Shown: positions 30,113 through 51,180 of the stretch, one piece after another
Layout of the letters: each line of letters opens with the position of its first letter
How positions within the stretch are numbered: the stretch's first letter is position 1
Origin: Allorhodopirellula solitaria
GTDB taxonomy: Bacteria; Planctomycetota; Planctomycetia; Pirellulales; Pirellulaceae
DNA length: 64,000 bases
Assembly: GCF_007859855.1 (NCBI RefSeq)
Contig: NZ_SJPK01000001.1
Location: 124,001-188,000 of the forward strand
Reading direction: 5' to 3'
Notes under the pieces: model-generated
The model's input: only the letters and a program-made list of their open reading frames with translations
Told to the model about the DNA's origin: nothing
The model's database searches: none
Position numbers and translations under genes: made by a program

Positions 30113-30402
30113 CGCTGCGGCAAATGTGCTGGATGGCCGACGCCCGCCGTCAACACGATTGGCAACTCGCCAGCACGCTCGTGTGGATCACCGCCGAAGT
30201 CAATCGCGATCGCAAACGTCGTCGCAAGCCCTTCAAACCAGACGATTTCAATCCGTGCGTCACCACGCGGCCCGGACCAGCGAAGGCATCGGTTGAACAA
30301 GTCGCGTCGTTGCTCGGTGCGACCTTTCACCCTTCACCCGTCACTCCTCAAACTTCCGACCCATGTCCCAAGTCCGTGCCGGAGCCGCTTTCGTCGAACT
30401 GA
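30058..30402 (+). CDS. second tail assembly chaperone part (gpT position), -1 frame
   Basis: In the -1 frame relative to the preceding gene, the sequence EREIFRLAGILCVDPGPLTL followed by MCWMADARRQHDW and RRKPFKPDDFNPC is clearly protein-like and matches the short proteins found before tape measure genes. No ATG or GTG is present close to its beginning; the frame is open back to TTG 29851. Either translation reaches it by -1 frameshifting out of the preceding gene, or it starts at an unusual codon. I do not see a classic X-XXY-YYZ slip site. The coordinates give the protein-like part only. Confidence 0.65.
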   Translation, partial: EREIFRLAGILCVDPGPLTLRQMCWMADARRQHDWQLASTLVWITAEVNRDRKRRRKPFKPDDFNPCVTTRPGPAKASVEQVASLLGATFHPSPVTPQTSDPCPKSVPEPLSSN

Positions 30403-33400
30403 CGCTGAAGAACTCAGCTTTGGTGAAAGGATTGCGTTCTGCACAGAAACAATTGTCCTCGTTTGCCTCATCAACCTCGTTGCTGGGTGCAAAGATGACG
30501 GGCCTTGGTCTCGCGATGGCCGCGCCGCTGGGTGCCGGAATCCAAAAGTTTGCCGAGTACGACGACGCGATCCGACAAGTCGCCGCGATCACGGGAGCCA
30601 CTGGCGCAGCGTTCGATCGTTTGAACGCCAAGGCGAAACAACTCGGAGCGACCACCAGTTTCTCGGCCGTTGAAGTCGCGAGCCTGATGACGGAACTCGG
30701 CCGTGCCGGGTTCGATCCGCGGCAAATTGAAGACATGACCGGCAGCGTCATGAACCTCGCCCGAGCGACCGGCACCGACGCCACGCTCGCGTCGGGAATC
30801 TTCGCCGCCGCGATTCGCCAATTCAACATGGAAGCCGGCCAAGCCCCGCGAGTCGCCGACGCACTCACCGCCGCCGCCAACAAATCGTTCAACAGTGTCG
30901 AGTCGCTCGGCGAAGCACTGAAATACGCCGGCCCCGTCGCGGCCGATGCGAACATGAGCCTCGAAGAAACGCTCGCGATCCTGGGAACGCTTGGCAACGT
31001 CGGCATTCAGGGTTCATCCGCCGGTAACGCACTGAAGCGTCTGTTAACCCTGTCCGCTGCGGAGTCCGAGAAATTTCAGAAGGTGTTCGGGGTTGCCACC
31101 AAAGACGCAGCCGGCAACGCTCGACCGCTGGTCGATGTGTTGGGTGAAGTCGCCGAAGCCACCAAAGACCTCGGCTCGTCCGACCGAGCAGCCAAGTTCA
31201 ACGAAGTCTTCGGGATGCTGGGCATCACCGCCGCATCCGCGATCGGTAAGACAGTCACCGACACACGTGAGTTGCTCGGCGAACTCGAAGGTGCCGGAGG
31301 TATCGCAAAACGAACCGCCGACAAGATGGAATCCGGACTCGGCGGAGCGTTCCGTGTTCTGGCCAGTTCATTCGAGGCGGTCCGCATCGCTATCGGTGAA
31401 GCTCTCGAAAAGCCGATCCAACGACTAACTGAAAACCTCTCGTTCGCCGCATCCGCCATCACCGATTGGATCGGCGAAAACAAACGTGCCGTACAAATCG
31501 CCGCGTTGGTTGCTGCTGGTGTCGTCGCCGCCGGTGCCGCGTTGCTCGCAATCGGATCAGCCGCCGCCGCAGCATCCGTTGCCGTCGGCGGCTTACTGGG
31601 TATCTTCTCCGCGATCGGCGGTGTTGTCGGGATGGCGGGCGCAGCCGTCGCTGCACTCCTGTCACCCATCGGCTTAGTCGTCGCCGGCGTCGCGGGACTG
31701 GGCGTCTATCTCGCCAAAACCTCTAGACTGCTCGCCCGAGTGTCCGCGTTCTTCAAAACCGCGTTCGCTCAAATTGCCGTCGATTCACAGGCCGCCTTCA
31801 AAGCTATCGCCGCATCACTCGCGTCAGGTGACATCACCGGCGCGGCCAAGGTCATGTGGGCTTACTTGCGAGGCCTCTGGAAACAAGGCGTCACGGCCTT
31901 GTCCGATGCATGGGATCAATTGTCGGCCAGCCTCGATGGTTTCGCCGGCGGATTGCTGTCCGCTGTGGGCAGTCTCCTTCGCAGCACGCTTGCGTGGGCG
32001 AACGAAAACCGGGCGGCAATCCTAACCGCCGTTGCTGGGTTCGCTGCAATCAAAGTCGCCGCTTACGGAGTCGGTGCCGCGATGATCGCCCTCAAAGGCA
32101 TCACGCTCGGTCTCGCCGTTGCATCGAAAACACTCGCAGCGACGTGGGCAGTGTTGAAAGCGGTTGGGACCGGCATCAAAGCCGTCTTCATCGGACTGGC
32201 CGCCGTGAAGAAGATCAACATCGCACTCGCCGGAGTCTATGCCGCGGTCACCGCGGGATTGTCGGGTGCGTTTGGGCTACTCACCGGGGCAATCAGTGCT
32301 GCGGCCGGTGCGATGGCGTTGTTGTTTTCACCGCTCGGTTTGGTCGTTGCCGGCGTCGTCGCGCTCGGTGCTTATTTCCTCTACACATCGGGAGTCATCG
32401 GCAGCTCGATCGAGTTCCTCAAAGGAGCCTTCCAAACTCTCAAAGCCAACACGCTGGCCGCGTTTGGTGCGATCGCCAACGCTCTCCGCGCCGGTGACAT
32501 CAACGCGGCCGTCGACGTTCTGTGGTCGTACATCAAATTGCAATGGACCAAGGGCACGACCTGGTTGTCTGGCATGTGGTCACGTTTCACCGCATACCTG
32601 TCTGACGCCTGGGGAGACGCGATCTACAAACTGGCCGACCAACTTGCTCAAGGTTTCGGCGGCTTGCGAGCAATCTGGAACAGCACGGTCAGTTACCTCG
32701 CCGACGGTTGGACGATCCTCACGTCTGCCGTTCAAAAAGGTTGGAACAACACAGTCGGGTTCCTCAAGAAGGGATTCCTGAAACTCCACGAACTGGTCGA
32801 CATTGCCGGTGACGTAGCAATCCAAATCGGCGGTGTGCTCGTCAACGCTCTCGCCGGCGTCGAGGGTGCCTGGGTGGAAACGATCGACTATTTGGCTGAT
32901 TCATGGTCGGTGTTCGTGGGCGAAGTCCGCAAGATGTGGAACAGCACGGTCGGTTTCCTCCGCAAAGCATGGGTGAAACTGAAATCACTGTTCGACGACG
33001 ACATCAACGTCGAAGCCGAAGTCCGCAAAATCGACAACGAAACCAACGCCAACAACCTCGAAGAGCAACGCAAACGCCAAACGGCAATCGCCGGCCGCGC
33101 CGAGAAACGACGCAAACGCAAAGCGGAGATCGAAGCGAACCGCAAAGCGATGCAAGAAGACCTGCAACGCCAACTCGATCAGAGAAAGAAGTCTCGCGAA
33201 GGCCAAGACCTCGACGCCGATTTCGCTGCCATCGACGCCGAAACCGACCAGCAGAACGCCGCCGTCGATGCCGAACGTGATCGCCAGTTCGATGCCAACG
33301 CGAAGACGAACGACCAACGCGTCGCCGACACCGAAGAATTCACCGCCGGCGTGCGTGATTCACTCGACCAAATGCGGGAGCAAGCCAAAGCCGACGCCGC

Positions 33401-34328
33401 AGCCAAACGAGCCGAGCGTTCACAAGCCGAAGCCGACCGTCAAAACGAAGTCGCCAAAGCCGAAGCTGACTTCCAAGCCGCGATCGACAAAGCAAACGCA
33501 CTCAAACCGTCCGAAGACGGTCAACCAGCTGACACCAACACCAATCCGCCACGAATCAACGATGACTTGGCTGCCGCGATCGCCGAAGCCAAAGCGTCTC
33601 TCGAGGCCGCCCAAGCCGACGCCGGTATGACTGGTGAAGAGGCTGCCGGTGACGAACGGATCGAAAAGCTGAAAGCCGGCATCGCCGCGATGGAAGCCAA
33701 AGCCGCTGCCATCACCAATCAAAGCAACGAAGCCGGCAAAGTCAAACTCCCGCCGGCAAGGCTCGAAGACGATGCGGTCGCCCTGGAACTCGACCGCGAC
33801 GCCCAAGCCTCGATCGACAACTTTTCAGGAACCGACGTCGGCGACAAATCATCGAACGAATCCGTCACCGGCAAGTTCGACGCCAAGGGACTGAACTTCG
33901 GCAGCGGTGCCCGCAAGCTCGAACCGATCGCGTTGCAACCGGCCGAAAAGCTGAATCCGATCGACGATCCGGTCGAACCCGAAGTCATCGCCGCACCGAT
34001 GCTGCTACTCGACGAACCGGCCGCGGACGCTGATCCCAAGTTGGCAACCGAAGAACCGGATGCTGAAGCCGAACCAGTCATTCAAGCCGAATCGGCGATT
34101 AACCAAGACTCGGGTTTGCAGCAAATCAACGAACGACTCATCGCCATCGGACAACACCTCATGAAGTCGAACGTCTTACTCGCGGCCGGAAGCGGGAACC
34201 TCGACCAAACCGGCGAACGCTCGGGCCTGGGTTTAAGCGAGGACGTCCAACGCGCCATCGTGGAAACCGCTCAGAACACTCGCAAGTTGGCCGAACGGTC
34301 CAACGGCGGCGGATTGGTGTTTAGCTGA
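30363..34328 (+). CDS. phage tail tape measure protein, TP901 family
   Basis: A 1321-residue protein, the largest of the virion module. Residues 10-330 match the TP901 core (FAEYDDAIRQVAAITGATGA, FSAVEVASLMTELGRAGFDP, SLEETLAILGTLGNVGIQGS). Several hydrophobic Ala/Gly-rich membrane-type segments occur near 375-455 and 560-690. A Lys/Glu/Ala coiled coil extends from about 880 to 1150. It sets tail length and probably passes into the host envelope during DNA delivery. With roughly 1.5 A per residue a tail of about 0.2 micrometre would be expected (family rule, inference). Confidence 0.93.
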   Translation: MSQVRAGAAFVELTLKNSALVKGLRSAQKQLSSFASSTSLLGAKMTGLGLAMAAPLGAGIQKFAEYDDAIRQVAAITGATGAAFDRLNAKAKQLGATTSFSAVEVASLMTELGRAGFDPRQIEDMTGSVMNLARATGTDATLASGIFAAAIRQFNMEAGQAPRVADALTAAANKSFNSVESLGEALKYAGPVAADANMSLEETLAILGTLGNVGIQGSSAGNALKRLLTLSAAESEKFQKVFGVATKDAAGNARPLVDVLGEVAEATKDLGSSDRAAKFNEVFGMLGITAASAIGKTVTDTRELLGELEGAGGIAKRTADKMESGLGGAFRVLASSFEAVRIAIGEALEKPIQRLTENLSFAASAITDWIGENKRAVQIAALVAAGVVAAGAALLAIGSAAAAASVAVGGLLGIFSAIGGVVGMAGAAVAALLSPIGLVVAGVAGLGVYLAKTSRLLARVSAFFKTAFAQIAVDSQAAFKAIAASLASGDITGAAKVMWAYLRGLWKQGVTALSDAWDQLSASLDGFAGGLLSAVGSLLRSTLAWANENRAAILTAVAGFAAIKVAAYGVGAAMIALKGITLGLAVASKTLAATWAVLKAVGTGIKAVFIGLAAVKKINIALAGVYAAVTAGLSGAFGLLTGAISAAAGAMALLFSPLGLVVAGVVALGAYFLYTSGVIGSSIEFLKGAFQTLKANTLAAFGAIANALRAGDINAAVDVLWSYIKLQWTKGTTWLSGMWSRFTAYLSDAWGDAIYKLADQLAQGFGGLRAIWNSTVSYLADGWTILTSAVQKGWNNTVGFLKKGFLKLHELVDIAGDVAIQIGGVLVNALAGVEGAWVETIDYLADSWSVFVGEVRKMWNSTVGFLRKAWVKLKSLFDDDINVEAEVRKIDNETNANNLEEQRKRQTAIAGRAEKRRKRKAEIEANRKAMQEDLQRQLDQRKKSREGQDLDADFAAIDAETDQQNAAVDAERDRQFDANAKTNDQRVADTEEFTAGVRDSLDQMREQAKADAAAKRAERSQAEADRQNEVAKAEADFQAAIDKANALKPSEDGQPADTNTNPPRINDDLAAAIAEAKASLEAAQADAGMTGEEAAGDERIEKLKAGIAAMEAKAAAITNQSNEAGKVKLPPARLEDDAVALELDRDAQASIDNFSGTDVGDKSSNESVTGKFDAKGLNFGSGARKLEPIALQPAEKLNPIDDPVEPEVIAAPMLLLDEPAADADPKLATEEPDAEAEPVIQAESAINQDSGLQQINERLIAIGQHLMKSNVLLAAGSGNLDQTGERSGLGLSEDVQRAIVETAQNTRKLAERSNGGGLVFS

Positions 34329-35122
34329 TGAGCATTTCCGCCGGCGGATACACCTTTGAAGTCGCCGCGTTGTCGCCCAAGGCAACCCGCGGCACCCAAA
34401 CGTCAGACACGACTTCGTACGTGGCCAGTTCCGGAGGTGGCGGTGTCGATCCTGCAGCGGCGGCCAGTGCGTTGTTACAACACTTCCGCACAACGCAGCC
34501 CGAGTTGATCCCGTTCCTGCGAATCGACGCGGAACACATCAATGAAAAATACGCGATCGTCACCGCGAACTTGACCGAAACCAAACTCGATCCGGTTTCG
34601 TTTAATACAATGGGCGCGACAACGCACCTGAATCAATCGCTCGGCACGCGTGGCATCTACGCCGCTCCCGGCAAGATCGCACCGAACTACCGCAGTGCCA
34701 TCGGCGTCAGCGATTCAGGCGTGGCCGGCGTCGACGTGACGGTGCCGGCATTCGAGTTCTCGGTCCGCAAGAAGTTCGAGTTCGTTTCGACCTCATATCT
34801 TCTGGCCGTCGTCGCGATGACCGGCATGACCAACGGCACACCGTGGTCGATCTTCGGCCCCGGCGAAGCGTTGTTCCTCGGTGGCGAGGGCGGCGAGGAC
34901 GACAACAACTGGGTCGACATCACTTACCACTTCGCCGCTCGACCCAACCAGCCCGCTCTGCAACTCGGCGACATCGGCACAGTGTCGAAGCGTGGTTGGG
35001 ATTACTTGTGGGTGAAACACGACGAAGAAGTCGTCGGCGACCGTGTGCTGCAAACGCCCGCGGCAGCTTACGTCGAACAGGTTTATCCCGAAGGCAACTT
35101 CAACGCACTTGGAATCTCATAG
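34328..35122 (+). CDS. tail-tip region protein, function unknown
   Basis: A 264-residue protein directly after the tape measure (TGATG overlap), in the place of the distal tail protein. It begins MSISAGGYTFEVAALSPKAT and later has FLRIDAEHINEKYAIVTANL, VAMTGMTNGTPWSIFGPGEA and ITYHFAARPNQPALQLGDIG, a beta-rich pattern. No homologous family comes to mind. It is followed without a gap by the Ser-rich gene. Confidence 0.7.
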   Translation: MSISAGGYTFEVAALSPKATRGTQTSDTTSYVASSGGGGVDPAAAASALLQHFRTTQPELIPFLRIDAEHINEKYAIVTANLTETKLDPVSFNTMGATTHLNQSLGTRGIYAAPGKIAPNYRSAIGVSDSGVAGVDVTVPAFEFSVRKKFEFVSTSYLLAVVAMTGMTNGTPWSIFGPGEALFLGGEGGEDDNNWVDITYHFAARPNQPALQLGDIGTVSKRGWDYLWVKHDEEVVGDRVLQTPAAAYVEQVYPEGNFNALGIS

Positions 35123-37768
35123 TTGGCAAGACGCGTTCGACCCGGTGACAGTCTCAACATCACGGCGGTCGAATACAACCGACTGCTGTCGGCGGCCGAT
35201 GCGTCTCATCGCAATGGACTGCCCGGCGGTGCTGGCCCGCGAACACACTCACGCAACGCTTCCACGGTTCGTGTCCACAACAAATCCGGTGCAGTCGTTC
35301 CGATCGGCGGTATCGTCGGTTTCGAGTCACCACTCACCGACCCCAACGCCGGCCCAGTCGAACTGGCTCGCTTCGTTCGCGACGCTACGATCGAAACGGC
35401 CAAACCGACCGAAGACGATCACACTGGCCGCGTCGGTGTCGCGATTGAACCCATCCGTGACAACGAAGTCGGCCGAGTCGTCTTCGATGGCGTGGTCGCG
35501 GCCCAAGTCGATGTCACCAAAACGTGGCACCGTTTCGCCGACGTGGCCGAGTCTGGTGGCGACACACTGCAATCCAAGCCAGACGGATCGGCCCAGATCC
35601 TATGGCGAAAAGATCCCAATCAAACTGGCCGGCAATGGGCGGTCGTGCGAGTCGGCCGGCCTGCCGATCCGGTCTACCTCGTCAAAGTACCCCAAGGCGG
35701 CATCGCATCACGAAAGGGAATGCGAACCGGCGCAGCAGACTGCGATCTGTTTGAGCTCGACAAAGAAGGCGAGATCGAAGCGGTCAAAGATCCAGCCGGC
35801 GATTCCGTCCGCATCACCGCTCGCAATCACTCCGCCCAACGCATTCGCGGCCCCATCGAAGGCAGCGGCGAAGACCAGTACCTCGTCGTCAATTTTGATG
35901 GCCACCGATCGTGGGTCGTCGACCCGCCCAAGCAAACGCTGCTCTGCAAACCAACCAAGCGACTGAAAGCCAAGTCGTGGGGAATGGCTCGCGAGCTACG
36001 GTTCGATGGCAACGCGTGGAAACCCATCGGCGTCAAAGTCTCGGTCTACAACGTGTGCGACTACGCGTTGTTGCCCAGCCAACAAATCATCGGGCACTTT
36101 CACGAAGACACCGGCAGCTACGTCACGATCGGTTGCCGATGCTGTGACGGAAGCAGTTCGTCAAGCTCATCGTCTTCATCCGGTAGCTCATCATCCAGCG
36201 TTTCATCGTCATCGTCGAGTAGCTCGTCCAAATCAAGCAGCCCATCGAGCAGCAGTAGTTCATCACCGAGCAGCAGTTCATCGAGTCATTCTTCGATGAG
36301 CAGTTCGAGCTCAAGCAGCATGTCGTCGAGTTCGAGTAGCTCGCCATCAAGCTCGTCATCTTCCCCAAGTTCATCGTCACCGAGTTCGTCATCACCAAGT
36401 TCATCATCGCCGTCGAGCAGTTCGCATTCAAGCTCATCGTCGATCCCGTCATCGTCGAGCAACTCGTCTTCATCGCCCTCGTCATCTTCTAGCAACCAGT
36501 CATCGTCGCCAAGCTCTTCTTCAGTAAGCGACTCCTCGTCATCGAGCGTCTCGGATTCTTCGTCGAGCGAATCATCCAGCGTCTCGGACTCGTCCAGCAG
36601 CACACCTTCCGATTCATCATCGTCGACGCCACCAAGTTCAAGCTCCTACTCAACGGTCACAGATTCATCGAGCAGCAGTTCATCCAACGAATCATCATCG
36701 GATAGTCCGAGTTCGTCCTCGGTCGTTGATTCATCATCCAGCGATTCATCGGCATCGTCCGATTCATCGCAACCATCGTCTGACAGCCCATCGAGTGTTT
36801 CGGAATCATCAGCGAGCGAGCCATCCGATAGTTCAGCATCAATGCCCGAGAGTTCGGGCTCGTATTCAACGGTCACGGACTACAGTTCGTCCAGCAGCAC
36901 GCCGTCCTCTGGCAGTCCGTCGGATAGCAGCGACAGTTCAGTCTCCGACGGTTCGCCATCCAGCGAATCACAATCTGAGTCCGACTCACAATCCGATTCC
37001 GCTTCCGAATCAACGCCGTCCGAATCCAAAAGTGAATCATACTCAACGGTTGACGACTCATGGTCTTCATCCAGCCACCAATCATCCGACGTCAGTGACA
37101 GTTCAGTTTCTGACGGATCTCCATCGAGCGAATCAACTCCTTCCGAATCGGCATCCCAATCCGATTCAACGCCGTCGGCAAGCGAGTCCGAAAGCGACGA
37201 ATCGGACCAAAGCACTTCAGACAACCCAAGTGGCTCTGTCGAAGACCCAAGCTACTCGGTCTGGGACGGCTCAGGATCATCACACGATTCGACCTCGGAT
37301 GGGTCGCCGTCCAACGATTCAACATCCGATCAATCGGTTTCGGACGATTCAACATCCGATGCATCCGACTCTGACCTTTCCAACTCCGATGGTTCAGACT
37401 CACGAGACCAATCGGAATCGAACAACGACTCCGGATCCGACGAAACATCCGAAAACGATTCAGGTGGCGGCGGATCATCCGGCGTTAGTGACGGATCAGG
37501 CTCCGACGCCAGCGACAATTCCGGCGATTCCGCATCCGAGCAAAGCGAAGAATCAGTTGACGAATCGGAAGACGAACCATCGACCGACGGCAGCGAAGAC
37601 GAACCATCCGAAGATGGCGAGTCCAGCGAAGGTTCATCCGACGCTTGCGAATCCACCTGGATCTGGTCGTGCGGCTGGGAACTGCAAGGCAGCGACTGTG
37701 AGGACGCCGGCGACCCACCGTCGAGCAGCGGTTCGTATGACGGCGAAGTGGTAACGGTGTCCGCATGA
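35123..37768 (+). CDS. giant serine-rich virion-associated protein
   Basis: An 881-residue protein starting at TTG, one base after the previous stop. Residues 1-335 form an ordered, beta-rich domain (GIVGFESPLTDPNAGPVELA, VGVAIEPIRDNEVGRVVFDG), probably tail-tip or fibre. After a CRCCDG cluster about 500 residues are mostly Ser, first poly-Ser with Pro, later Ser-Asp/Glu. A YSTVTD-like motif recurs at codons starting 36644, 36860, 37037 and 37250 (spacing 72, 59 and 71 residues). The end has a Cys-containing CESTWIWSCGWELQG segment. The glycosyltransferase cluster right behind suggests the Ser tract is O-glycosylated (inference). Confidence 0.85.
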   Translation: MARRVRPGDSLNITAVEYNRLLSAADASHRNGLPGGAGPRTHSRNASTVRVHNKSGAVVPIGGIVGFESPLTDPNAGPVELARFVRDATIETAKPTEDDHTGRVGVAIEPIRDNEVGRVVFDGVVAAQVDVTKTWHRFADVAESGGDTLQSKPDGSAQILWRKDPNQTGRQWAVVRVGRPADPVYLVKVPQGGIASRKGMRTGAADCDLFELDKEGEIEAVKDPAGDSVRITARNHSAQRIRGPIEGSGEDQYLVVNFDGHRSWVVDPPKQTLLCKPTKRLKAKSWGMARELRFDGNAWKPIGVKVSVYNVCDYALLPSQQIIGHFHEDTGSYVTIGCRCCDGSSSSSSSSSSGSSSSSVSSSSSSSSSKSSSPSSSSSSSPSSSSSSHSSMSSSSSSSMSSSSSSSPSSSSSSPSSSSPSSSSPSSSSPSSSSHSSSSSIPSSSSNSSSSPSSSSSNQSSSPSSSSVSDSSSSSVSDSSSSESSSVSDSSSSTPSDSSSSTPPSSSSYSTVTDSSSSSSSNESSSDSPSSSSVVDSSSSDSSASSDSSQPSSDSPSSVSESSASEPSDSSASMPESSGSYSTVTDYSSSSSTPSSGSPSDSSDSSVSDGSPSSESQSESDSQSDSASESTPSESKSESYSTVDDSWSSSSHQSSDVSDSSVSDGSPSSESTPSESASQSDSTPSASESESDESDQSTSDNPSGSVEDPSYSVWDGSGSSHDSTSDGSPSNDSTSDQSVSDDSTSDASDSDLSNSDGSDSRDQSESNNDSGSDETSENDSGGGGSSGVSDGSGSDASDNSGDSASEQSEESVDESEDEPSTDGSEDEPSEDGESSEGSSDACESTWIWSCGWELQGSDCEDAGDPPSSSGSYDGEVVTVSA

Positions 37769-38328
37769 TCCACTGCCCTCACCTCACGCCTGACAACCAG
37801 TGCGAAGTCGCCGCCGGCATGGCGGGTTGCAAAGTCCGCACTTCGCCGGCCGCGTGCAACGCCTGCCAAAACGAGTCCAACCCAAGAGCGATCAATGTAG
37901 TCACGATCGGGATGGCGTTGGTCAACAAACGCCGGCGGAAACGTGACGTCGGTGAACTGTCCGCGATGCTGGCGAACTACATGCCCGACCGCGATGAGTT
38001 ACCTGCAACTCTGAAGATCGCGGATTACCGGCCTGGTCCCGGCAATGAACTCAAAAAGATGCTGGCTTGGTTTGCCAAGCCGAGCGAAACGTGCAACTGC
38101 GAAACTCGCGTCGACACGATGAACGATTGGGGCGTCGAAGGGTGTCTTCGCAACGTCGACACAATCACCGAATGGTTACTCGAAGAAGCCCAACTGAGAG
38201 GCATGCCCCATGGACGGTTCACCCGCGTCATCGCGAAATCGCTCGTCAACACAGCGATCCGAAAGTTCCAACGCAAGTTCCCCGACGGAGCACCCGAGCC
38301 GGATGACAACGATGATCGCCACCGATAA
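37765..38328 (+). CDS. Cys-rich uncharacterised phage protein, copy A
   Basis: A 187-residue protein with a Cys-rich N terminus (CPHLTPDNQCEVAAGMAGC, then CNACQNE), possibly metal-binding, and a conserved C-terminal half (LKKMLAWFAKPSETCNCETR, then FQRKFPDGAPEPDD). A paralogue of the C-terminal half is encoded at 51181-51669 on the minus strand, in both cases directly before a GT25-sulfotransferase gene. The start overlaps the Ser-rich gene by 4 nt. Function unknown; the linkage suggests a role in the same decoration process. Confidence 0.75.
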   Translation: MIHCPHLTPDNQCEVAAGMAGCKVRTSPAACNACQNESNPRAINVVTIGMALVNKRRRKRDVGELSAMLANYMPDRDELPATLKIADYRPGPGNELKKMLAWFAKPSETCNCETRVDTMNDWGVEGCLRNVDTITEWLLEEAQLRGMPHGRFTRVIAKSLVNTAIRKFQRKFPDGAPEPDDNDDRHR

Positions 38329-39688
38329 CAAGATCGTCGAACGATGCTTCTTGATGAACCTCGACCGCCGTGGCGATCGTTTGCGTGATTGGATGAAGCA
38401 ATTGCCGCAACCATGGCCATTCCCGCAACCCGAGCGGTTCGCCGCCGTCGATGGTCGTCACATCGCAACGCCTCCGCAATGGCGGGCCGGCAACGGAGCG
38501 TGGGGCTGTTACCGATCGCATTGCCTGATCCTCGAAAAGTGCTTGCTCGAAGGCATCGACTCGTACGTTGTCTTTGAAGACGACGCCGGCTTTGGCGAGG
38601 ATTTCCAAGAACGGTTGGTCGAATACGTCAGCGAACTGCCGGCCGATTGGGGACTGGCGTATCTGGGTGGCCAACACCTCTATGCCGGCAAGCATCCGCC
38701 ACACAAGGTCACCGAACGGGTCTACCGACCGTACAACGTGAATCGCACGCATGCGTTCATGGTTCGCGGACGAGACAACATGAAGGCCCTGTATCGTCAC
38801 CTTCATTGGAACGATTGGCACACCAAACACCACATCGACCACCACCTCGGTCGCCTGGCCCAGCGTCGGTATCAAGCGTTGGTGCAAGGCAAGAACGTCG
38901 ATAAAGAATCCATCGCCGTCTACACGCCCGACCGCTGGCTCGTCGGCCAATTGCCGACCAAGTCCAATATCTGCGGTCGCAAGTGGAGTCAAACGCGGTT
39001 TTTCAACGACGCCAAGAACGCAGACCACTCTGACGCCCCGTTCTACGCCGTCCTCGGTCCACACCGTGCCGGCACATCCTGCGTCGCGATGGTCATGCAC
39101 CACCTCGGTGTCCACATGGGCAACCAACTCGGCGGGTACGAAACCACCGGCGGAGGCGAAGCGGTCGGACTCGCACAACTTTGTGAAAAGGCAATGCGAT
39201 TCCCCGCCGTCGATCCCACGATGTCCGACACCCAACTCACCCAGCAACTGAAGTCTTGGATCGTCACCCGCAAAGCCGAAGCGAACCGCGACAAGACTGT
39301 CGCTGGAGCCAAGTACCCGCACCTGTGTCGCTTCGTCGAACATCTCCATGCGGGTCTCGGCGACTCGTTACGGATCATCAGCGTCGAACGGGACATCGAA
39401 GCGTCGATCCGATCGCTGCAATCGCGCAGCGAAAAGCACCGAGGCCAATGGTTCGCCGGCACCGACGAGCAATGCGAAACGCTACAGCAGAGCCTGCTCG
39501 AACACCGCGACGCGTTCATCAAGGCTCATCCCGACGTCCCGGTCTTCCGCATCGAGTTCGCCGAACTGGTGACGTACCCCGAAGAAGTCATCAAGAACCT
39601 GATCGAGTTCCTTGGCATCGAACCCACCGATGAGGAGATCTCATCCGCGATCGACCATGTGAACCCTGACCTGCGAAAGCATGGCTGA
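38303..39688 (+). CDS. GT25 glycosyltransferase fused to sulfotransferase, copy A
   Basis: About 461 residues from ATG 38303 (ATG 38312 also possible). Residues 10-240 match glycosyltransferase family 25: CFLMNLDRRGDRLRDWMKQL, GAWGCYRSHCLILEKC and YVVFEDDAGFGE with the catalytic acidic cluster. Residues 250-461 match sulfotransferases: the PAPS-binding loop AVLGPHRAGTSCVAM and SVERDIEASIRSLQSRSEKH. One enzyme may add a sugar and the other a sulfate to the same glycan. A paralogue lies at 49692-51119. The product is probably cytoplasmic. Confidence 0.88.
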   Translation: MTTMIATDNKIVERCFLMNLDRRGDRLRDWMKQLPQPWPFPQPERFAAVDGRHIATPPQWRAGNGAWGCYRSHCLILEKCLLEGIDSYVVFEDDAGFGEDFQERLVEYVSELPADWGLAYLGGQHLYAGKHPPHKVTERVYRPYNVNRTHAFMVRGRDNMKALYRHLHWNDWHTKHHIDHHLGRLAQRRYQALVQGKNVDKESIAVYTPDRWLVGQLPTKSNICGRKWSQTRFFNDAKNADHSDAPFYAVLGPHRAGTSCVAMVMHHLGVHMGNQLGGYETTGGGEAVGLAQLCEKAMRFPAVDPTMSDTQLTQQLKSWIVTRKAEANRDKTVAGAKYPHLCRFVEHLHAGLGDSLRIISVERDIEASIRSLQSRSEKHRGQWFAGTDEQCETLQQSLLEHRDAFIKAHPDVPVFRIEFAELVTYPEEVIKNLIEFLGIEPTDEEISSAIDHVNPDLRKHG

Positions 39689-40390
39689 AAAACTCCCCAA
39701 GCCAACCGAAGACCTCGGCGTAATGTACATCGCCATCGGTGGTAAATCGCTGTGGCAACTTCGCCGGTCGATCGCGTCCCTGCGTTTCCATTGCCCGGAC
39801 GTACCGGTTGCGTTGTTCACCAACCAACCGGCCGAAGCGTGCCCGTCGGTCGAGTACCGCTTCGAGGTCTCGGCGACGGGCGGCTACCACGTCAAACCAC
39901 GCTTCATCCCATGGCTGCCGTTCGATCGAACGGTCTACCTCGATGCAGACACGGTTGTGCTGAGTCCCACCGCAATCACGCCCACCGGTTTGCTCAACGA
40001 TGACTTTGGCTACGAGGCGATCTACGTTCACGACGCTGCGACAAAGTCCGCATCTGCGGTGTGCCGTCGATGAACTCCGGCGTCCTGATGCTCAAGAAAT
40101 GCCAGCGTGTTCTCGACGCACTCGCTCATTGGCGACGCATCTACCACGGCGGCAACGACGAGGTCTTGTTGACCAAGGCATTACTCCTCCATGCAGTGCC
40201 ATCATTCATCTTGCCGGCCGAGTGGAACTGCCGCGATCGCAGCCAAGTCCGTCACTACTCCACCATCCGCATCACACACCACCGTCACGTTTTGCGACTG
40301 GTCCAACCCAACGGATCGGTGCCGGACGCGTTGCTGAAAGATTGGTGGGAGACAGGAATCGCCCGTAATACGGGAGAGGTTGTCAAATGA
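39681..40390 (+). pseudogene. GT8-like glycosyltransferase split by a frameshift
   Basis: The first frame (39681-40073) gives LGVMYIAIGGKSLWQLRRSI, FTNQPAEACPSVEYRFEVS and TVYLDADTVVLSPTAITPTG with the DxD motif. Near 40030-40060 the reading moves to the -1 frame, where VPSMNSGVLMLKKCQRVLDA, the usual next block, continues to 40390. Together they would make about 235 residues, a normal length. A single base change would repair it. It is a recent mutation, an assembly error, or a tolerated slip. Confidence 0.8.
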
Positions 40391-40833
40391 TCAACCGCGA
40401 TGTTAATGACGTGCTGCGTCGAATCAAGTCACGCTATTTGCTGTTTGGCACCTTCGCGTTGCAGGTTCACGGATTCAGTTTCGGTAAACCCGACACCGAC
40501 TTGTGGCTCGATCCGAGTCTTGGCATGGAAGGCTGGAAAGACGCGGTCCGCGAGATCGCTGGTCCGCATGAGATTCTGTTCCGCGATCATCCCGACGCGG
40601 TCCCACCTTGCCAATCGGCACGTATTCATTGCACGCCGCACATGGACATCATCAGCCGGCCGAGCGGTCACACCGACGCTGACTTCGATCCGCTCTACGA
40701 CATCTCGATGCGATCACGCTACGGTCTCGTCCCACCGGTAAGGGTTTTGCTCCGCAGCAAGCTTCACGCTGGCCGACCGAAAGACTATCGGCACGTCATG
40801 CGAGTCGGTCGGCAAATTCTCAATATCTGGTGA
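40387..40833 (+). CDS. nucleotidyltransferase-fold-like protein
   Basis: A 148-residue protein. LFGTFALQVHGFSFGKPDTD followed by LWLDPS resembles the 'GG.AL..HG..R.T.D.D' core of AbiEii/MNT-type nucleotidyltransferases, with Asp residues in the expected place. The rest is short. It stands between glycosyltransferases, coupled by 4-nt overlaps on both sides, so it may provide activated sugar or modify a partner protein. Activity is not proven by the motif alone. Confidence 0.62.
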   Translation: MINRDVNDVLRRIKSRYLLFGTFALQVHGFSFGKPDTDLWLDPSLGMEGWKDAVREIAGPHEILFRDHPDAVPPCQSARIHCTPHMDIISRPSGHTDADFDPLYDISMRSRYGLVPPVRVLLRSKLHAGRPKDYRHVMRVGRQILNIW

Positions 40834-41582
40834 AGCACTTGGTCAACCTGTCTGACATTACGTTTTGCATCAAGACGATTCACCGACCGTGGTCATGCCA
40901 TCGCTTGGTCGAATCGCTACTCAAACACATCGACAACCCAACCATCATCGTGGTGGACGACGGCCAGCCCGATCGACGATTCGCTGAAAAATACCCGGAG
41001 TCCGCTGCACGCTGCCAGGTCATCCACACCGAGACACCCGACGTGGGCGTGGGCATCGGCCGCAACCTCGCTGTTGATGCGGTCCAAACCGAGTTCATGT
41101 TCCTGCTCGACGACGATCACGTCGTCACGCCCAACCTGAACCTCGATCGACTCTGTAAACGATTCACAACTGAAGACGTCGACATCCTCGGTGTCCGCCA
41201 AGGCAGCGGCGGTCGCCCGACGATGCTGTCCAAGCTGATGAACGGACAACGAATCTGGATTCACCGTGGTGAGACACACCGCAACGGTTATGTCGCGTGG
41301 TGTGATATGTCTTCCAACGCTTTCCTCGCTCGCACTGAAACGATTCGCAACCTCCGCTGGGACGAGGAACTCAAAACTTTCGAGCACTGGGAGTTTTTCT
41401 ACCGAGCCAAGCTGGCCGAACTGAAAGTCGCGGTCGCCGGCGATTGCTTCATCAAACACGCCCACGTCGAATCGTCCGACTACCGCGTTCTGCGAAAGCG
41501 ATCGACGTACCGCTCGATGGGACTCCAGAAGCACGGCTTTCACTCAATGCGTTACCCCGGCGGAGGTGTTGTTCGTGCGTGA
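40830..41582 (+). CDS. family 2-like glycosyltransferase, first of a tandem pair
   Basis: A 250-residue enzyme starting at GTG in a GTGA overlap. It shows ITFCIKTIHRPWSCHRLVES, the nucleotide-sugar site TIIVVDDGQPDRRF and the metal site FMFLLDDDHVVTP. The later block SNAFLARTETIRNLRWDEEL and FEHWEFFYRAKLAELKVAVA matches beta-1,4-N-acetylgalactosaminyl-type GT2 enzymes. It transfers one sugar to the growing glycan. The next gene is a tandem copy. Confidence 0.87.
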   Translation: MKHLVNLSDITFCIKTIHRPWSCHRLVESLLKHIDNPTIIVVDDGQPDRRFAEKYPESAARCQVIHTETPDVGVGIGRNLAVDAVQTEFMFLLDDDHVVTPNLNLDRLCKRFTTEDVDILGVRQGSGGRPTMLSKLMNGQRIWIHRGETHRNGYVAWCDMSSNAFLARTETIRNLRWDEELKTFEHWEFFYRAKLAELKVAVAGDCFIKHAHVESSDYRVLRKRSTYRSMGLQKHGFHSMRYPGGGVVRA

Positions 41583-42288
41583 TCAAGTCACCTTCTGCAT
41601 CAAGACGATCCATCGGCCGCAGTGTTGCGCCGCACTCGTTCGCAGTATTCACCGACACTACGGCGATGACCGACCGACAATCCATGTTCTCGACGATGGC
41701 CAGCCGGAACTTCGCTTCTCGACGATCTGTCCCGACGAAGCCGCGATGGTCGACCAAATCATCGAGACCGAATACGACATCGGGTTATCCGCCGGCCGCA
41801 ATCAATTGCTCGATGCCGGCGACACGCCGACTGTGGTGTTCACCGACGACGACCACCTCGTTACGGCACAGACGCGGTTGGCAGAACTGGTTCGCAAACT
41901 GAACCGACATCACGACATCGACTTGCTCGCCGCGTTGTCGAACCAGCAAGAACGTCCCAAGTTGCTCAAGGTCGAGGGCAAGACGCTGCGGATTCCCGGT
42001 GGGCATTTCAAGAAGCATGGTTCGCTTCGTTGGTGTCACTACGTCGGGAACTGCTTTGTGGCCTACCGCGACATCCTGCAAGCAATTCGTTGGGACGAAT
42101 CGTTGAAAGTCGAAGAGCATTGGGATTTTTTTTGGCGATGCAAGATTGCTCGTGTCAACGTGGCCTGCGACATCGACCATTCGTTCAAACACGAACACGT
42201 CGATCCGCCGGGCTACGTTCGTCGCCGACCTGAATTCTTGAAAGCCAGCCTTCGCAAACATGGATTGGAGCGAGTGATATGGAAATGA
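41575..42288 (+). CDS. family 2-like glycosyltransferase, second of a tandem pair
   Basis: About 237 residues from GTG 41575. The order is the same as in the preceding gene (QVTFCIKTIHRPQCCAALVR, IHVLDDGQPELRF, TVVFTDDDHLVTAQTRL, EEHWDFFWRCKIARVNVACD). Identity is spread over the length, so the pair arose by tandem duplication and then diverged, probably to use a different sugar or linkage. It overlaps both neighbours. Confidence 0.87.
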   Translation: MRDQVTFCIKTIHRPQCCAALVRSIHRHYGDDRPTIHVLDDGQPELRFSTICPDEAAMVDQIIETEYDIGLSAGRNQLLDAGDTPTVVFTDDDHLVTAQTRLAELVRKLNRHHDIDLLAALSNQQERPKLLKVEGKTLRIPGGHFKKHGSLRWCHYVGNCFVAYRDILQAIRWDESLKVEEHWDFFWRCKIARVNVACDIDHSFKHEHVDPPGYVRRRPEFLKASLRKHGLERVIWK

Positions 42289-43313
42289 CGAAACCACAAC
42301 GAGTGATCGCAGTGCTGGACCTGCCGCCGCGGCGAGCACCAAAGAACGTTCGCGAGAGTTACGAGGCTGCGGCCGTCCGCTGGGACGCGGAGCTGCATTG
42401 GATTCGCGGCGACTTGCAACCGTGCCATCCGTTCTGGCAGAAGATGTTTGTCTGCGGTCATGTGCGAAAACTGTTCGGACCGTCGCATGTGTTGCAACTC
42501 GACAACGACATGGTGATTCGGTCGGATTGCCCGTCGCCGTTTGAGCTTGTTTCGCCTGACCGATTCGCGATGGTGTCCGATCGCCAGTGTGCCCACAATC
42601 GACTTGACAACGGTGGTTGGCAAAAGCGTGCTCATGAGATCTGGGCGAAACGTTGTCACATGAAGCCCGCGCCGACTTGGATGCATCCCAACGGTGGTTT
42701 GTATCTGTACGGCACGCAGAAGTTCGCACGAATGTTTGAGCGAATCGCTCAATATCTGATCGTCACGCACGGGGCGAACGATCAAGCGACCGACGAATCG
42801 CTCATCATCAACCAGTTGTGGAAAGACCATCCCGCCGCCATCGAGTTCCTGCCACCTGATTTCAACACCAGCATGGTGCAGATGCTCGAGTGGGCCGCCA
42901 ACCCGGTGATGCAAACTTGGATCTACCACTTCATTCAATCCAGCAAACATTACCTGCCGGATTGCCGCTGGCAAAGAAACGATCTGATTGAACTTCCGTT
43001 CCCCGGCAACAAGCGATCGCGAGACTTGATCAGCCAGTGGGGGAGCACGCCACCGGCGACCTACGACATCGGCCCAATCCTCCGCGTCCAGCCCGTCGCC
43101 AATTTGCTGGCTGCCTATCCTGACCTAATCGTCACCGGGACGTGGTCAAACAATCCCGATCTTCGAGCGTCGCAGCTCTCGGAATCGGACGACACGTTTT
43201 CGTCGCACCTGATGCTCACCCGTTTCCTTTTGCGGCTTGGTATCAACGCTCGCCGCTTCCACCTTCGCGCTACGGAGGAAGCCGATGCAACGACACAACC
43301 TGCCGGCACTTGA
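42279..43313 (+). CDS. glycosyltransferase-like protein (nucleotide-diphosphosugar fold), copy A
   Basis: A 344-residue protein. RAPKNVRESYEAAAVRWDAE starts it; HVLQLDNDMVIRSDCPSPFE holds a D-N-D metal motif and MHPNGGLYLYGTQKFARMF follows, as in GT8-type fold enzymes. A paralogue is encoded at 48026-49093 on the minus strand with the same blocks. It overlaps the preceding gene by 10 nt and the following gene by 29 nt. Confidence 0.8.
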   Translation: MEMTKPQRVIAVLDLPPRRAPKNVRESYEAAAVRWDAELHWIRGDLQPCHPFWQKMFVCGHVRKLFGPSHVLQLDNDMVIRSDCPSPFELVSPDRFAMVSDRQCAHNRLDNGGWQKRAHEIWAKRCHMKPAPTWMHPNGGLYLYGTQKFARMFERIAQYLIVTHGANDQATDESLIINQLWKDHPAAIEFLPPDFNTSMVQMLEWAANPVMQTWIYHFIQSSKHYLPDCRWQRNDLIELPFPGNKRSRDLISQWGSTPPATYDIGPILRVQPVANLLAAYPDLIVTGTWSNNPDLRASQLSESDDTFSSHLMLTRFLLRLGINARRFHLRATEEADATTQPAGT

Positions 43314-44094
43314 GTACCACATCGCGCACGGATGCAATTTGTCGTGTCAGCAGTGCAGTCACTACTCAAACCATCACCTCGCGGGAAAACTGCCCACCGT
43401 TGAAGAGGCCGACACCGAGTACTCGAAGTGGTCGCATCGGCTAAAACCGAAGCGGTTCGCGTTGCTGGGTGGTGAACCGCTGCTCAACCCCGCGATCGAG
43501 CAACACATTCAGCTTGCGCGGCAACACTGGCCCGACAGCGAATTGATGCTCGTGACCAACGGCTTCTTCCTGAATCGGTTCCCGAATCTTCCGATCGTGC
43601 TTCGCGAAACCCGATGCCGTCTCGAAGTCAGTGAACACGGAACGCACGAATCCTACGCCAAGCGATTTCGCAGAGTCCGCGAACTCGTTTGGAAGTGGCG
43701 ACAAGATTTTCACGGTGTACAAATCAACGTCCGCCAATCGCACCAAGGTTGGATGCGGCAGTACAACGTCGAGAGCGGCAAACCGATGCCGTTCGATTCC
43801 AAGCCCACCGCCGCGTTCAAAGTTTGCATGCAGAAAACATGCACTCAGTTATTTCAGATTCGACTTTGGAAATGCCCGGCCCTCGCGTATTTCGCAAAAC
43901 TCGAAGCCAAGTTGAAGTTGCAAACCATCCCCGAGTGGCAACTCTTCCGCGACTACAAAGCTTGCTCGTTCGACGCGACCGACGTTGAACTTCGCACGTT
44001 CATCGAAACCAAAGCCATCCCGCAGTGCGGTCTGTGCCCCAGCAATCGCACCAAGTTCGTTCATCCCAACCCGCTGCAAAGGACTGCCGAATAA
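43285..44094 (+). CDS. radical SAM protein of the glycan cluster
   Basis: A 269-residue protein starting at ATG 43285. The iron-sulfur motif is HGCNLSCQQCSHYSNH with Cys17, Cys21 and Cys24 (CX3CX2C). It is followed by FALLGGEPLLNPAIEQHIQL, the SAM-binding GGEP block. A second Cys set at the C terminus (CMQKTC, KCPALAYF, CGLC) could bind another cluster, as in SPASM-type enzymes. The reaction is unknown; a sugar or Ser/Cys modification would fit the context. Confidence 0.85.
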   Translation: MQRHNLPALEYHIAHGCNLSCQQCSHYSNHHLAGKLPTVEEADTEYSKWSHRLKPKRFALLGGEPLLNPAIEQHIQLARQHWPDSELMLVTNGFFLNRFPNLPIVLRETRCRLEVSEHGTHESYAKRFRRVRELVWKWRQDFHGVQINVRQSHQGWMRQYNVESGKPMPFDSKPTAAFKVCMQKTCTQLFQIRLWKCPALAYFAKLEAKLKLQTIPEWQLFRDYKACSFDATDVELRTFIETKAIPQCGLCPSNRTKFVHPNPLQRTAE

Positions 44095-44567
44095 TGCCGA
44101 ACCCATACCACCCCGAGATGCCACCGTATCCGTTCGTGCCCCCGTTCGATCCTCCCGGCAGCGAACCACCTTACGAACCCGAGGATGATGATGAACCGGA
44201 AGAAGACGACAACGACGGCCCGATCATCTTGACGCCACCGCCCGAACCACCGCCACCGGTCTGGCCCGACGACTATCCGCCCGGCTATCCCGAGCCAGGC
44301 CCGCGCCCGCCATGGTATCCCGAGGACTTCCCGTGGCCGCCGCCGCCTGAAGAACCGGTGGTGATCCAGAATCCATTGCCACCGCACATCTGGCCGCGTT
44401 TGCCACCCGACCATCCATACCACTTACCGCCCGGAAATTCGTACCCAGACAACCTACCGCCCGGTCACCCCGGCGAAGCCTACCCCGGAATGCCCGACTA
44501 CCCTGTCGTGCATCCTGGCGATTGGGGCGACGACTGGCCCAGCTATCCCGGCATCCTGGACGACTGA
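44094..44567 (+). CDS. proline-rich acidic low-complexity protein
   Basis: A 157-residue protein starting at ATG 44094 in a TAATG overlap. Pro makes up about a third of it, with many Tyr, Trp and Asp (PPYPFVPPFDPPGSEPPYEP, PPGYPEPGPRPPWYPEDFPW). There is no signal peptide. It is the last gene of the long plus-strand virion/glycan operon and is followed by a terminator. Such proteins are often flexible virion or surface spacers; function unknown. Confidence 0.72.
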   Translation: MPNPYHPEMPPYPFVPPFDPPGSEPPYEPEDDDEPEEDDNDGPIILTPPPEPPPPVWPDDYPPGYPEPGPRPPWYPEDFPWPPPPEEPVVIQNPLPPHIWPRLPPDHPYHLPPGNSYPDNLPPGHPGEAYPGMPDYPVVHPGDWGDDWPSYPGILDD

Positions 44568-46915: not shown

Positions 46916-46976
46916 GGATGCACTTTGAAATTGGAGGGTGTTTCGCGAAGTTCGGTGAATGGTGTGGCTGTGTTGG

Positions 46977-48025: not shown

Positions 48026-49093
48026 TCACGCGAACTTGTTCGCATCTCGCAATTGGTCGCCATCAAGAACAAAATCAAACGAACCAATCCATCGAGTGGC
48101 CTCGGCCAACGTGCATGGCAGCGAATGATATCGATGCGACAGCGGGCCAAGATCTGCGAGCACTTGTCGCAGCAATAGATAGTCGGTGTGCGACGCGCTC
48201 AGTTGTGAAGACAACGATCCAAGGTCGTCGGGCCAAACTATGGACTTATGAGCATGCAGCCCGTACAGACGCATTTCAGGAAAGAGAATCAGCAACTTAC
48301 AAATCGTTTCCGAGTCGGGCGATTCAACGCACCCGACGTTGTGTTTCCGGCAGCGAAGTTGGTCACTGAGTCGACGAATGGGATCGTCCTTGGCCCACGG
48401 CCAATCAGTTGTTTGCCACCGAGCGCCAGCAAGTTTGTTCTTTGCCCCCATGGCGTAGTGAGTGATGTAGGTTGGCGAGAATTTGTCGCGGAGCAACCCA
48501 GCGTTTTGACACAGAATCGTGTTAAATTCTTGTGGAAGAAATCGAATTGCCTCCCGATGCCACGTCCAAAGTATATTGCTAATGATACTTTCATCCGCCC
48601 CCATGTCTCCATAGTTTCGCCACCGCTTGGCTGCGAGATCAATGCGATGCCAAACCGAAGTGAAGTGTGGTAGCCCGTAGAGATAAAGGCCACCGTTAGG
48701 ATGGAGCGCCGGCGGCGAAGACGCAGACTTCAGCCGGCCTGCCCAAATGTTGTGCGCCTTGGCACCCCAGCTCGTTTCATCGACTCGCCGATCGGGTCTT
48801 TGTCTACCGGCGACCATCGCGAACTCGTTGGGTTTCGCGAGATCAAACGGACTTGGACAGTCTTCGCGAATCAACATGTCGTTGTCGAGCTGTAGCACAT
48901 GCGCGTCGCTGCGTTGATCCAACACCGCGCTAAACGCTTGCATCTTCTTCCAAAAGCAGTGCCCCCCCGTCTCGCAGTGAGTGAACCAGATCAATTCGGC
49001 ATCCCATCGTTTTGCCGCTGCCTGATACGATGCACGAACGTTTTGCGGGGCTTGTTTGGGCGGGAAATCGGGAACTACAATCACGCGTTTCAT
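48026..49093 (-). CDS. glycosyltransferase-like protein, copy B
   Basis: A 355-residue paralogue of the plus-strand protein at 42279-43313. Blocks shared are QAPQNVRASYQAAAKRWDAE, HVLQLDNDMLIREDCPSPFD with the D-N-D motif, and LHPNGGLYLYGLPHFTSVWH. It overlaps the sulfotransferase gene upstream by 4 nt. Acceptor and sugar are unknown. Confidence 0.8.
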   Translation of the reverse strand: MKRVIVVPDFPPKQAPQNVRASYQAAAKRWDAELIWFTHCETGGHCFWKKMQAFSAVLDQRSDAHVLQLDNDMLIREDCPSPFDLAKPNEFAMVAGRQRPDRRVDETSWGAKAHNIWAGRLKSASSPPALHPNGGLYLYGLPHFTSVWHRIDLAAKRWRNYGDMGADESIISNILWTWHREAIRFLPQEFNTILCQNAGLLRDKFSPTYITHYAMGAKNKLAGARWQTTDWPWAKDDPIRRLSDQLRCRKHNVGCVESPDSETICKLLILFPEMRLYGLHAHKSIVWPDDLGSLSSQLSASHTDYLLLRQVLADLGPLSHRYHSLPCTLAEATRWIGSFDFVLDGDQLRDANKFA

Positions 49094-49695
49094 TGGGCAC
49101 CTTGGTTGGTAAGGGTCAGAGGCTGCAACTCGTGATAAATTTCAATGTCGTTGACAAGTTGCTTGCACAGACGGCGTCGAGCTTCGTTCGAGACCGATGG
49201 TCGCGAAGGGGCCGCGTTGTGTTGCCGTTCGTTATCGATGGGGACATCGAGCCCAATTCGGTCAAACATCACTCGCATGCACGAGGACAGCGTGTGAGTG
49301 TCGTAGATCCATGTGCGATTAAGAACGCTCCGATAGTCGCCCGCGAAATAGTGGGCGAGGCCAAGAGAAACATGTCCCAAGAATTCAAAAGCGGCGTCCG
49401 CTTCGGGTGAACCCAGGGCATCACACCACTCTTGAGCATTGGGAAACCTCGCGAAAAACTTATTTTCATCGGGGCTCCAATCGGCTTGCTTGCGGAGCCT
49501 GGCATCAAAAGCCGACAAGGCATGCTGCACCGGTTCGCGTATTCCGATCAACAACCGGTCCGCCGGATGGGTCTCGGCGGCCAATATCAGTGGCGTGCAG
49601 TGACCAAGCCAAACATGATCCACACCACCTTCGCGTAGAACACGGTGAACATGAACCCCGCCGGTCTTTCCGACATGAACACAAACGATCATCAT
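49090..49695 (-). CDS. sulfotransferase-like protein
   Basis: A 201-residue protein. The 5'-phosphosulfate loop VCVHVGKTGGVHVHRVL starts it, and RLLIGIREPVQHALSAFDAR is the second PAPS-contacting block. It would transfer sulfate from PAPS to a sugar hydroxyl. It is coupled by 4-nt overlaps to the genes on both sides, the GT25-sulfotransferase before it and the GT-like gene after it. Confidence 0.82.
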   Translation of the reverse strand: MMIVCVHVGKTGGVHVHRVLREGGVDHVWLGHCTPLILAAETHPADRLLIGIREPVQHALSAFDARLRKQADWSPDENKFFARFPNAQEWCDALGSPEADAAFEFLGHVSLGLAHYFAGDYRSVLNRTWIYDTHTLSSCMRVMFDRIGLDVPIDNERQHNAAPSRPSVSNEARRRLCKQLVNDIEIYHELQPLTLTNQGAQ

Positions 49696-51119: not shown

Positions 51120-51180
51120 TTTGAATCCGTGAAGAAAGGGAATTGGAAATTCAGTTGTTTGCGAGTCTGCGTCCGCCGGA

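Follow-up and report, generated by a model that had tools for sequence, protein, structure and literature searches.

Serine-rich (Ser-rich) adhesins with adjacent glycosyltransferase (GT) genes are established in Gram-positive bacteria (PMC6973325), and virion glycosylation by phage-encoded GTs has been reported for the mycobacteriophages Che8, Corndog and Myrna (Freeman et al. 2023, cited in PMC12363180). The head fibre protein gp8.5 of phage phi29 consists of a beta-tulip base and an extended spike (PMC7602432). Here, we looked into a 64,000-nucleotide stretch (the window) of the 6.8-Mb genome of Allorhodopirellula solitaria (contig NZ_SJPK01000001.1, positions 124,001 to 188,000), in which a prophage carries a gene for a Ser-rich protein followed by a cassette of genes for GTs, a GT25-sulfotransferase fusion and a radical SAM protein. 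An earlier sequence-only reading had proposed that this locus yields a heavily O-glycosylated, sulfated phage fibre. We found that the Ser-rich gene and the cassette are a conserved system of planctomycete prophages. Judging from these genes, such prophages probably make a glycosylated, possibly sulfated, mucin-like fibre.

The Ser-rich gene, its cassette and their association

The tail tape measure gene is followed by the gene for p264, the Ser-rich gene (35123-37768) and a gapless operon reaching to 44567, in which each gene touches or overlaps the next one (Table 1). The sequence-only reading had a GT25-sulfotransferase directly after the Ser tract; the gapless operon and the fusion (Pfam Glyco_transf_25 and Sulfotransfer_3/1 within a single protein) were confirmed, but the first gene after the Ser-rich gene encodes p187, a Cys-containing protein that had been overlooked. 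The Ser-rich open reading frame (ORF) has a TTG start and encodes 881 residues, laid out as a folded N-terminal domain, the Ser tract (residues ~344 to 841) and a conserved Cys/Trp tip. The claimed tract of about 500 residues is borne out (498 residues, 56% Ser); its first third is 79% Ser, and its last third is 36% Ser and 30% Asp/Glu. All six Ser codons are used in the gene (TCA 71, TCG 70, AGC 52, TCC 49, AGT 28 and TCT 17), and this mixture of TCN and AGY codons means that the tract is not a DNA microsatellite and that selection acts on the protein; the tract is no DNA artefact. Across 45 homologues carrying the tip motif, the tracts that could be measured are 168 to 681 residues long and 48 to 67% Ser, with Ser densest near the anchor and acidic residues near the tip. 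The N terminus of the Ser-rich protein is not hydrophobic and its C terminus is the WIWSCGW tip, i.e., it has neither a signal peptide nor a wall anchor.

Next, we evaluated whether, in relatives, Ser-rich fibre genes come with GT genes, the comparison with loci lacking the Ser-rich gene that the sequence-only reading had suggested. We used p264 as a neutral survey anchor, which occurs beside both Ser-rich and Ser-poor fibre genes, and searched 50 IMG/VR records carrying it for five GT families. GTs were found in 23 of the 25 Ser-rich records and in 5 of the 25 Ser-poor ones (P value = 3.7 × 10−7; the records share ancestry and the statistic ignores phylogeny). When only records with at least 5 kb of downstream sequence were counted, the figures were 19 of 20 and 4 of 13 (P value = 1.6 × 10−4). 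These counts include GT families added to the search after some loci had been looked at and one record (L119, with a GT) that was moved from the Ser-poor to the Ser-rich group by eye, after the data had been seen. A Pfam scan of 81 ORFs beside diverged Ser-rich genes returned GT2 (12), GT1/4 (10), GT25 (6), GT64 (5), Sulfotransfer_3 (5), radical SAM (5) and FkbM (4), while 134 ORFs beside Ser-poor genes, with L119 still counted among them, gave GT2, GT1/4 and GT9 (3 each) and neither a sulfotransferase nor a radical SAM protein among the 25 families shown. Counted per record, a sulfotransferase occurs in ten Ser-rich records, as the GT25 fusion, and as a separate protein in one Ser-poor record (L193). 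Moreover, the GT sets beside Ser-rich genes are unrelated between lineages (GT25-sulfotransferase, GT4 plus GT2, Mannosyl_trans3 plus FkbM, or Gly_transf_sug), which is the better argument for independence. These results indicate that the link between Ser-rich fibre genes and GTs is strong, though not exclusive.

The system is conserved well beyond the window. A homologue of the N-terminal domain was present in 32 of 247 genomes from the order of A. solitaria, and 12 loci fetched from the same family keep the tape measure, p264, the Ser-rich gene, p187 (where called), the GT25-sulfotransferase, both GT2 genes and the radical SAM gene, with the GT8-like, nucleotidyltransferase-like and GTx genes variable (one of these loci ends at a contig edge, and a few genes missed or merged in ORF calling were seen by tblastn). 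By tblastn, none of the 36 window-type loci that extend 4.5 kb or more downstream lacked the GT25-sulfotransferase. Ratios of nonsynonymous to synonymous substitution against the related locus L037 were 0.02 to 0.24 over p264, the anchor domain and the cassette genes (0.02 for p187), and selection on all of these is purifying. The fusion occurred at 39 loci in 84,980 species genomes, nearly all of them planctomycete and including Rubripirellula, Rhodopirellula, Stieleria, Roseiconus, Pirellula and Phycisphaera; Rubripirellula obstinata and Rhodopirellula rubra are culturable examples. A Ser-rich gene lay at most 5 kb upstream in 23 of the 26 loci whose fusion was at least 60% identical and that had at least 2.5 kb of upstream sequence, and also upstream of all three Phycisphaera fusions (40 to 43% identity). 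Among 50,697 phage records, p264 and the anchor domain had no match at the sensitivity used, and GT2a had two weak partial ones. Separately, we observed at least four window-type GT25-sulfotransferase loci in the single genome of Rhodopirellula rubra (L258, L262, L263 and L268), from which it follows that several related prophages coexist there.

Anchor domain and cassette enzymes

The AlphaFold2 model of the Ser-rich protein has a confident core at residues ~47 to 180. Among the top 22 Foldseek matches in the PDB, those with a probability above 0.9 all came from phage head/capsid or head-fibre entries, including phi29 gp8.5, phage T1, FCWL1, BB1 and the HFTV1 capsid-portal; their probabilities reached 1.00, and their E values of only 0.02 to 0.2 count against the match. 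In BFVD, the best match had an E value of 6 × 10−7, and the list consisted mostly of unnamed phage proteins, with collagen-repeat and "tail fiber-like" proteins besides. The modelled fold is thus suggestive of capsid-decoration or head-fibre bases. The fibre had earlier been assigned to a tail operon: its gene does sit downstream of the tape measure gene, which speaks for a tail fibre, but the resemblance of the anchor makes "tail" doubtful, and from the model we infer that a head fibre is favoured, with a probability no lower than that of a tail fibre. No similarity between the anchor domain and the head-decoration proteins of the window itself was detected by comparing profiles, scanning the anchor family against PHROG and Pfam at an E value of 0.5 gave nothing usable, and the structure of p264 had no informative fold match in the PDB.

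The two GT2 enzymes and the radical SAM protein named by the sequence-only reading were recovered by Pfam (Glycos_transf_2 in two cassette proteins). In the fusion protein, the GT25 domain scored 39.6 bits against PF01755 (cut-off, 24) with an invariant EDDA motif, and the predicted sulfotransferase domain scored 35.5 bits against PF13469 (Sulfotransfer_3; cut-off, 27) with a conserved GxHRxGxS loop for 3'-phosphoadenosine 5'-phosphosulfate (PAPS). The nearest solved relatives of the GT25 domain were procollagen galactosyltransferase 1 (E value = 8 × 10−11) and Mimivirus R655 (E value = 3 × 10−7), with bacterial GT25 structures ranking lower (E value = 0.001); we take the first two to be protein or virus glycosylators. 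The split GT8-like gene of the earlier account reflects a 10-nt gap relative to two relatives (L037 and L057) that have one intact 238-residue frame, but its label, like those of the nucleotidyltransferase-like protein and of "another GT" (GTx344), came without a Pfam match; GTx344 had no PDB sequence match either. No transmembrane segment was found in any cassette protein, and no flippase, so that both the site of action of the enzymes and their acceptor should be cytoplasmic.

As an observation of its own, the Pro-rich acidic protein encoded at the end of the operon and its relatives lie beside the radical SAM gene in either order and may be a second substrate. An invertible cassette was considered for the second, inverted gene set of the window and rejected: the two GT25-sulfotransferase genes are inverted but only 70 to 79% alike in DNA, with no perfect inverted repeats. 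A similarly placed, 69%-identical inverted copy was seen on the contig of the main cassette in Roseiconus nitratireducens (L259 and L290).

Alternative explanations and prophage context

One alternative is that the cassette alters the host envelope, for instance at a cytoplasmic step of lipopolysaccharide (LPS) core synthesis, so that it would serve lysogenic conversion and the fibre gene would be a mere neighbour. In its favour, the Pfam description gives LPS-core transfer as the classical role of bacterial GT25 enzymes, the second cassette has no Ser-rich gene beside it, and the fibre gene is Ser-poor at a few GT-positive loci (L120, L129, L165, L193 and, by a weak match, L180). We nevertheless consider it unlikely, given that the cassette is coupled gaplessly to a late structural gene and lacks membrane proteins and a flippase, that the presence of GTs tracks Ser-rich fibre genes over lineages with different GT families, and that the GT25 domain is closer to the collagen enzyme than to bacterial GT25 among solved structures. 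Nor were the components of O-antigen conversion of the Gtr type (the GtrA flippase and membrane-bound GtrB/GtrC) found in the cassette, whose proteins have no transmembrane segment. Since GTs also occur beside Ser-poor fibres, cassettes may serve fibres generally, with Ser-rich stalks as the main acceptor among others. In one such record (L120:11927-14737), we observed a Ser-poor homologue with collagen-like GXY repeats followed directly by a GT2 gene, possibly a glycosylated collagen-like fibre.

The Ser tract could also be an unmodified flexible spacer, with the GTs acting on another virion protein, such as the capsid, p264 or the Pro-rich protein. Ser linkers of low complexity occur in other proteins, e.g., as polyserine linkers in secreted carbohydrases; genome papers exist on bacteria that have polyserine proteins. 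No GT was detected in L104 and L130, two (GS)n records that are nearly identical. This, too, appears improbable: GTs accompany nearly all Ser-rich records, the Ser content of window-type tracts stays at 48 to 67% while their length varies from 168 to 681 residues, and p264 is also present in GT-negative Ser-poor records. We dropped (SSG)n linker loci as GT-free controls, because L131 carries Mannosyl_trans3 and FkbM and Mannosyl_trans3 also occurs in L108, L134 and L135, leaving L104 and L130 as the GT-free ones. Glycosylation of phage DNA bases, as by TET-associated glycosyltransferases, can be given next to no credence: GT2a matches PF20691 (TAGT) weakly (22.2 bits, under the cut-off of 27.5) and PF00535 far better, no TET/JBP dioxygenase or hydroxymethylase was present among the window proteins scanned, and the sulfotransferase and the Ser-rich linkage would be left unexplained.

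The earlier claim of a dedicated cassette finds good support in linkage, conservation and co-occurrence; the glycan that it would make is predicted. Besides the second cassette, the GT-positive Ser-poor records and the GT-free (GS)n records, several points weigh against a glycosylated virion fibre. An independent-pairs phylogenetic test had 2 pairs on supported branches, too few for significance. The GT8-like, nucleotidyltransferase-like and GTx genes are putative, their labels being drawn from motifs read by eye (LDADTVV, DTDLWLD and LDNDMVI). The searches run on the window prophage found no terminase, and it may therefore be defective. Lastly, the presence of the Ser-rich protein in particles and a glycan on it are both predictions from the genes.

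A large serine recombinase gene (598-2166) lies close to the start of the prophage region, which contains portal, head protease/capsid protein, head decoration and tape measure genes (PHROG scan). A search for attachment sites found no 14-mer common to the left end and the interval from 44 to 64 kb. Two further observations concern neighbouring genes. Within the region, 12813-18857 (minus strand) encodes Cas3-like, Csb2 (GSU0054) and Csb1 (GSU0053) proteins, i.e., type I-G CRISPR effector genes; one repeat scan of 11 to 21 kb found no CRISPR array, and Cas1/Cas2 were not noticed. At 45842-47083 (minus strand), a protein has papain-like motifs (GSCVGAG and KNSWG, by eye) and no Pfam or PHROG match.

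Table 1. Coordinates of the fibre gene, the cassette and adjoining features within the window
Feature	Position	Strand	Basis
Tail tape measure protein, upstream context	30363..34328	+	Pfam PhageMin_Tail, E 2e-46; PHROG tape measure, E 4.9e-79
p264, conserved tail-operon protein, survey anchor	34328..35122	+	Kept in 216 fetched loci
Folded N-terminal (anchor) domain of Ser-rich protein	35123..36148	+	AlphaFold2 local confidence (pLDDT) ~80-92 at residues ~47-180; Foldseek PDB and BFVD
Ser-rich tract, ~498 residues, 56% Ser	36152..37645	+	Composition and codon counts
Conserved C-terminal tip (CxSTWIWSCGWELxxSDC...YDGEV)	37646..37768	+	Common to 45 proteins found with tip motif
p187, small, Cys-rich N terminus	37765..38328	+	4-nt overlap with Ser-rich gene
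GT25-sulfotransferase fusion, ORF core (possible start 38210)	38306..39688	+	PF01755, E 6.8e-10; PF13469, E 1.7e-8
GT8-like gene, two frames (39681-40073, 40061-40390)	39681..40390	+	DxD motif by eye
Nucleotidyltransferase-like protein, 148 residues	40387..40833	+	Motif reading only
GT2 glycosyltransferase a (GT2a)	40830..41582	+	PF00535, E 7.4e-15
GT2 glycosyltransferase b (GT2b)	41566..42288	+	PF00535, E 1.7e-6
GTx344, GT-like with DxD motif	42279..43313	+	Motif only; paralogue at 48026-49093
Radical SAM protein	43285..44094	+	PF04055, E 2.7e-9
Pro-rich acidic protein	44094..44567	+	Adjoins radical SAM gene in window-type loci where both found
Second, inverted cassette: GTx355 (48026-49093), p201 (49090-49695), GT25-sulfotransferase B (49692-51221), truncated p187-like ORF (51181-51669)	48026..51669	-	ORFs and Pfam

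Proposed mechanism and comparison with known systems

The best explanation of the locus, and one that we hold to be reasonably likely, is that, ahead of assembly, the Ser stalk is O-glycosylated and sulfated by the cassette enzymes. The Ser-rich protein would be a virion fibre with an anchor of the capsid-decoration or head-fibre-base type, a Ser stalk that is long and disordered, and a small tip containing Cys. The cassette, which is translationally coupled, would supply soluble cytoplasmic GTs that place short O-glycans on the stalk serines before the fibre is assembled, with the GT2 enzymes as likely primers and the GT25 domain as a likely extender. Sulfate would be transferred from PAPS to the glycan by the fused sulfotransferase domain, and a further modification, of the sugar or of the Pro-rich protein encoded next to it, may be the task of the radical SAM enzyme. 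The result would be a mucin-like coat, bristled and negatively charged, which might aid surface binding, prevent particle aggregation or shield the virion. More tentatively, we propose a sulfated mucin-like coat of planctomycete phages, in which head fibres with Ser stalks of several hundred residues would be O-glycosylated and sulfated in the cytoplasm by enzymes of their own operon, and GT cassettes swapped between lineages would alter the glycan.

If true, this would give virion glycosylation, established in a few mycobacteriophages, a second setting in a large, uncultured lineage of planctomycete phages, with the addition of sulfation, which did not turn up for phage virions in our literature search. 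No paper linking a sulfotransferase to phage tail fibers and glycosyltransferases was retrieved (most subscription journals lay outside the search), and a search for Ser-rich proteins of planctomycete prophages returned only an unrelated match, on a Lactobacillaceae species. Because a compact set of soluble enzymes and its presumed acceptor share one operon, acceptor and glycan are directly testable in Escherichia coli, and a natural comparison set exists in related phages, whose fibres are Ser-rich, Gly-Ser, collagen-like or Ser-poor.

The fibre resembles phi29 gp8.5 and other beta-tulip decoration proteins in that an extended stalk follows a base domain of the predicted fold (PMC7602432), a likeness of predicted fold with weak PDB E values; the stalk of gp8.5 is a helical supercoil, whereas the Ser-rich tract here is probably disordered. 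Mimivirus-family fibrils are likewise surface fibrils decorated by virus-encoded glycosylation clusters, and the GT25 domain is related to R655, but these are eukaryotic giant viruses with different scaffold proteins and sugar pathways (PMC10117803). The analogy with Ser-rich repeat adhesins and their accessory Sec systems, drawn by the sequence-only reading, holds in its logic, a Ser-rich scaffold with adjacent, variable GT genes (PMC6973325). It does not extend to the GtfA/GtfB priming pair, in place of which the cassette has GTs of the GT2, GT25 and DxD types, nor to the SecA2/SecY2/Asp genes, none of which are among the cassette genes. Furthermore, those adhesins have a signal peptide and a wall anchor and sit on the cell, whereas the Ser-rich protein has neither and would be carried on the virion. 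The system had also been taken for one not yet described. The planctomycete Ser-rich variant is new, but phage-encoded virion glycosylation is known in mycobacteriophages, where, as far as PMC12363180 recounts it, phage-encoded GTs modify the phage's own structural proteins, as is presumed here. According to that account, capsid and tail tube proteins are modified there, whereas the planctomycete prophages, in other hosts, encode a putative dedicated fibre, long and Ser-rich, and a multi-gene cassette with a radical SAM protein and a sulfotransferase fusion among its products.

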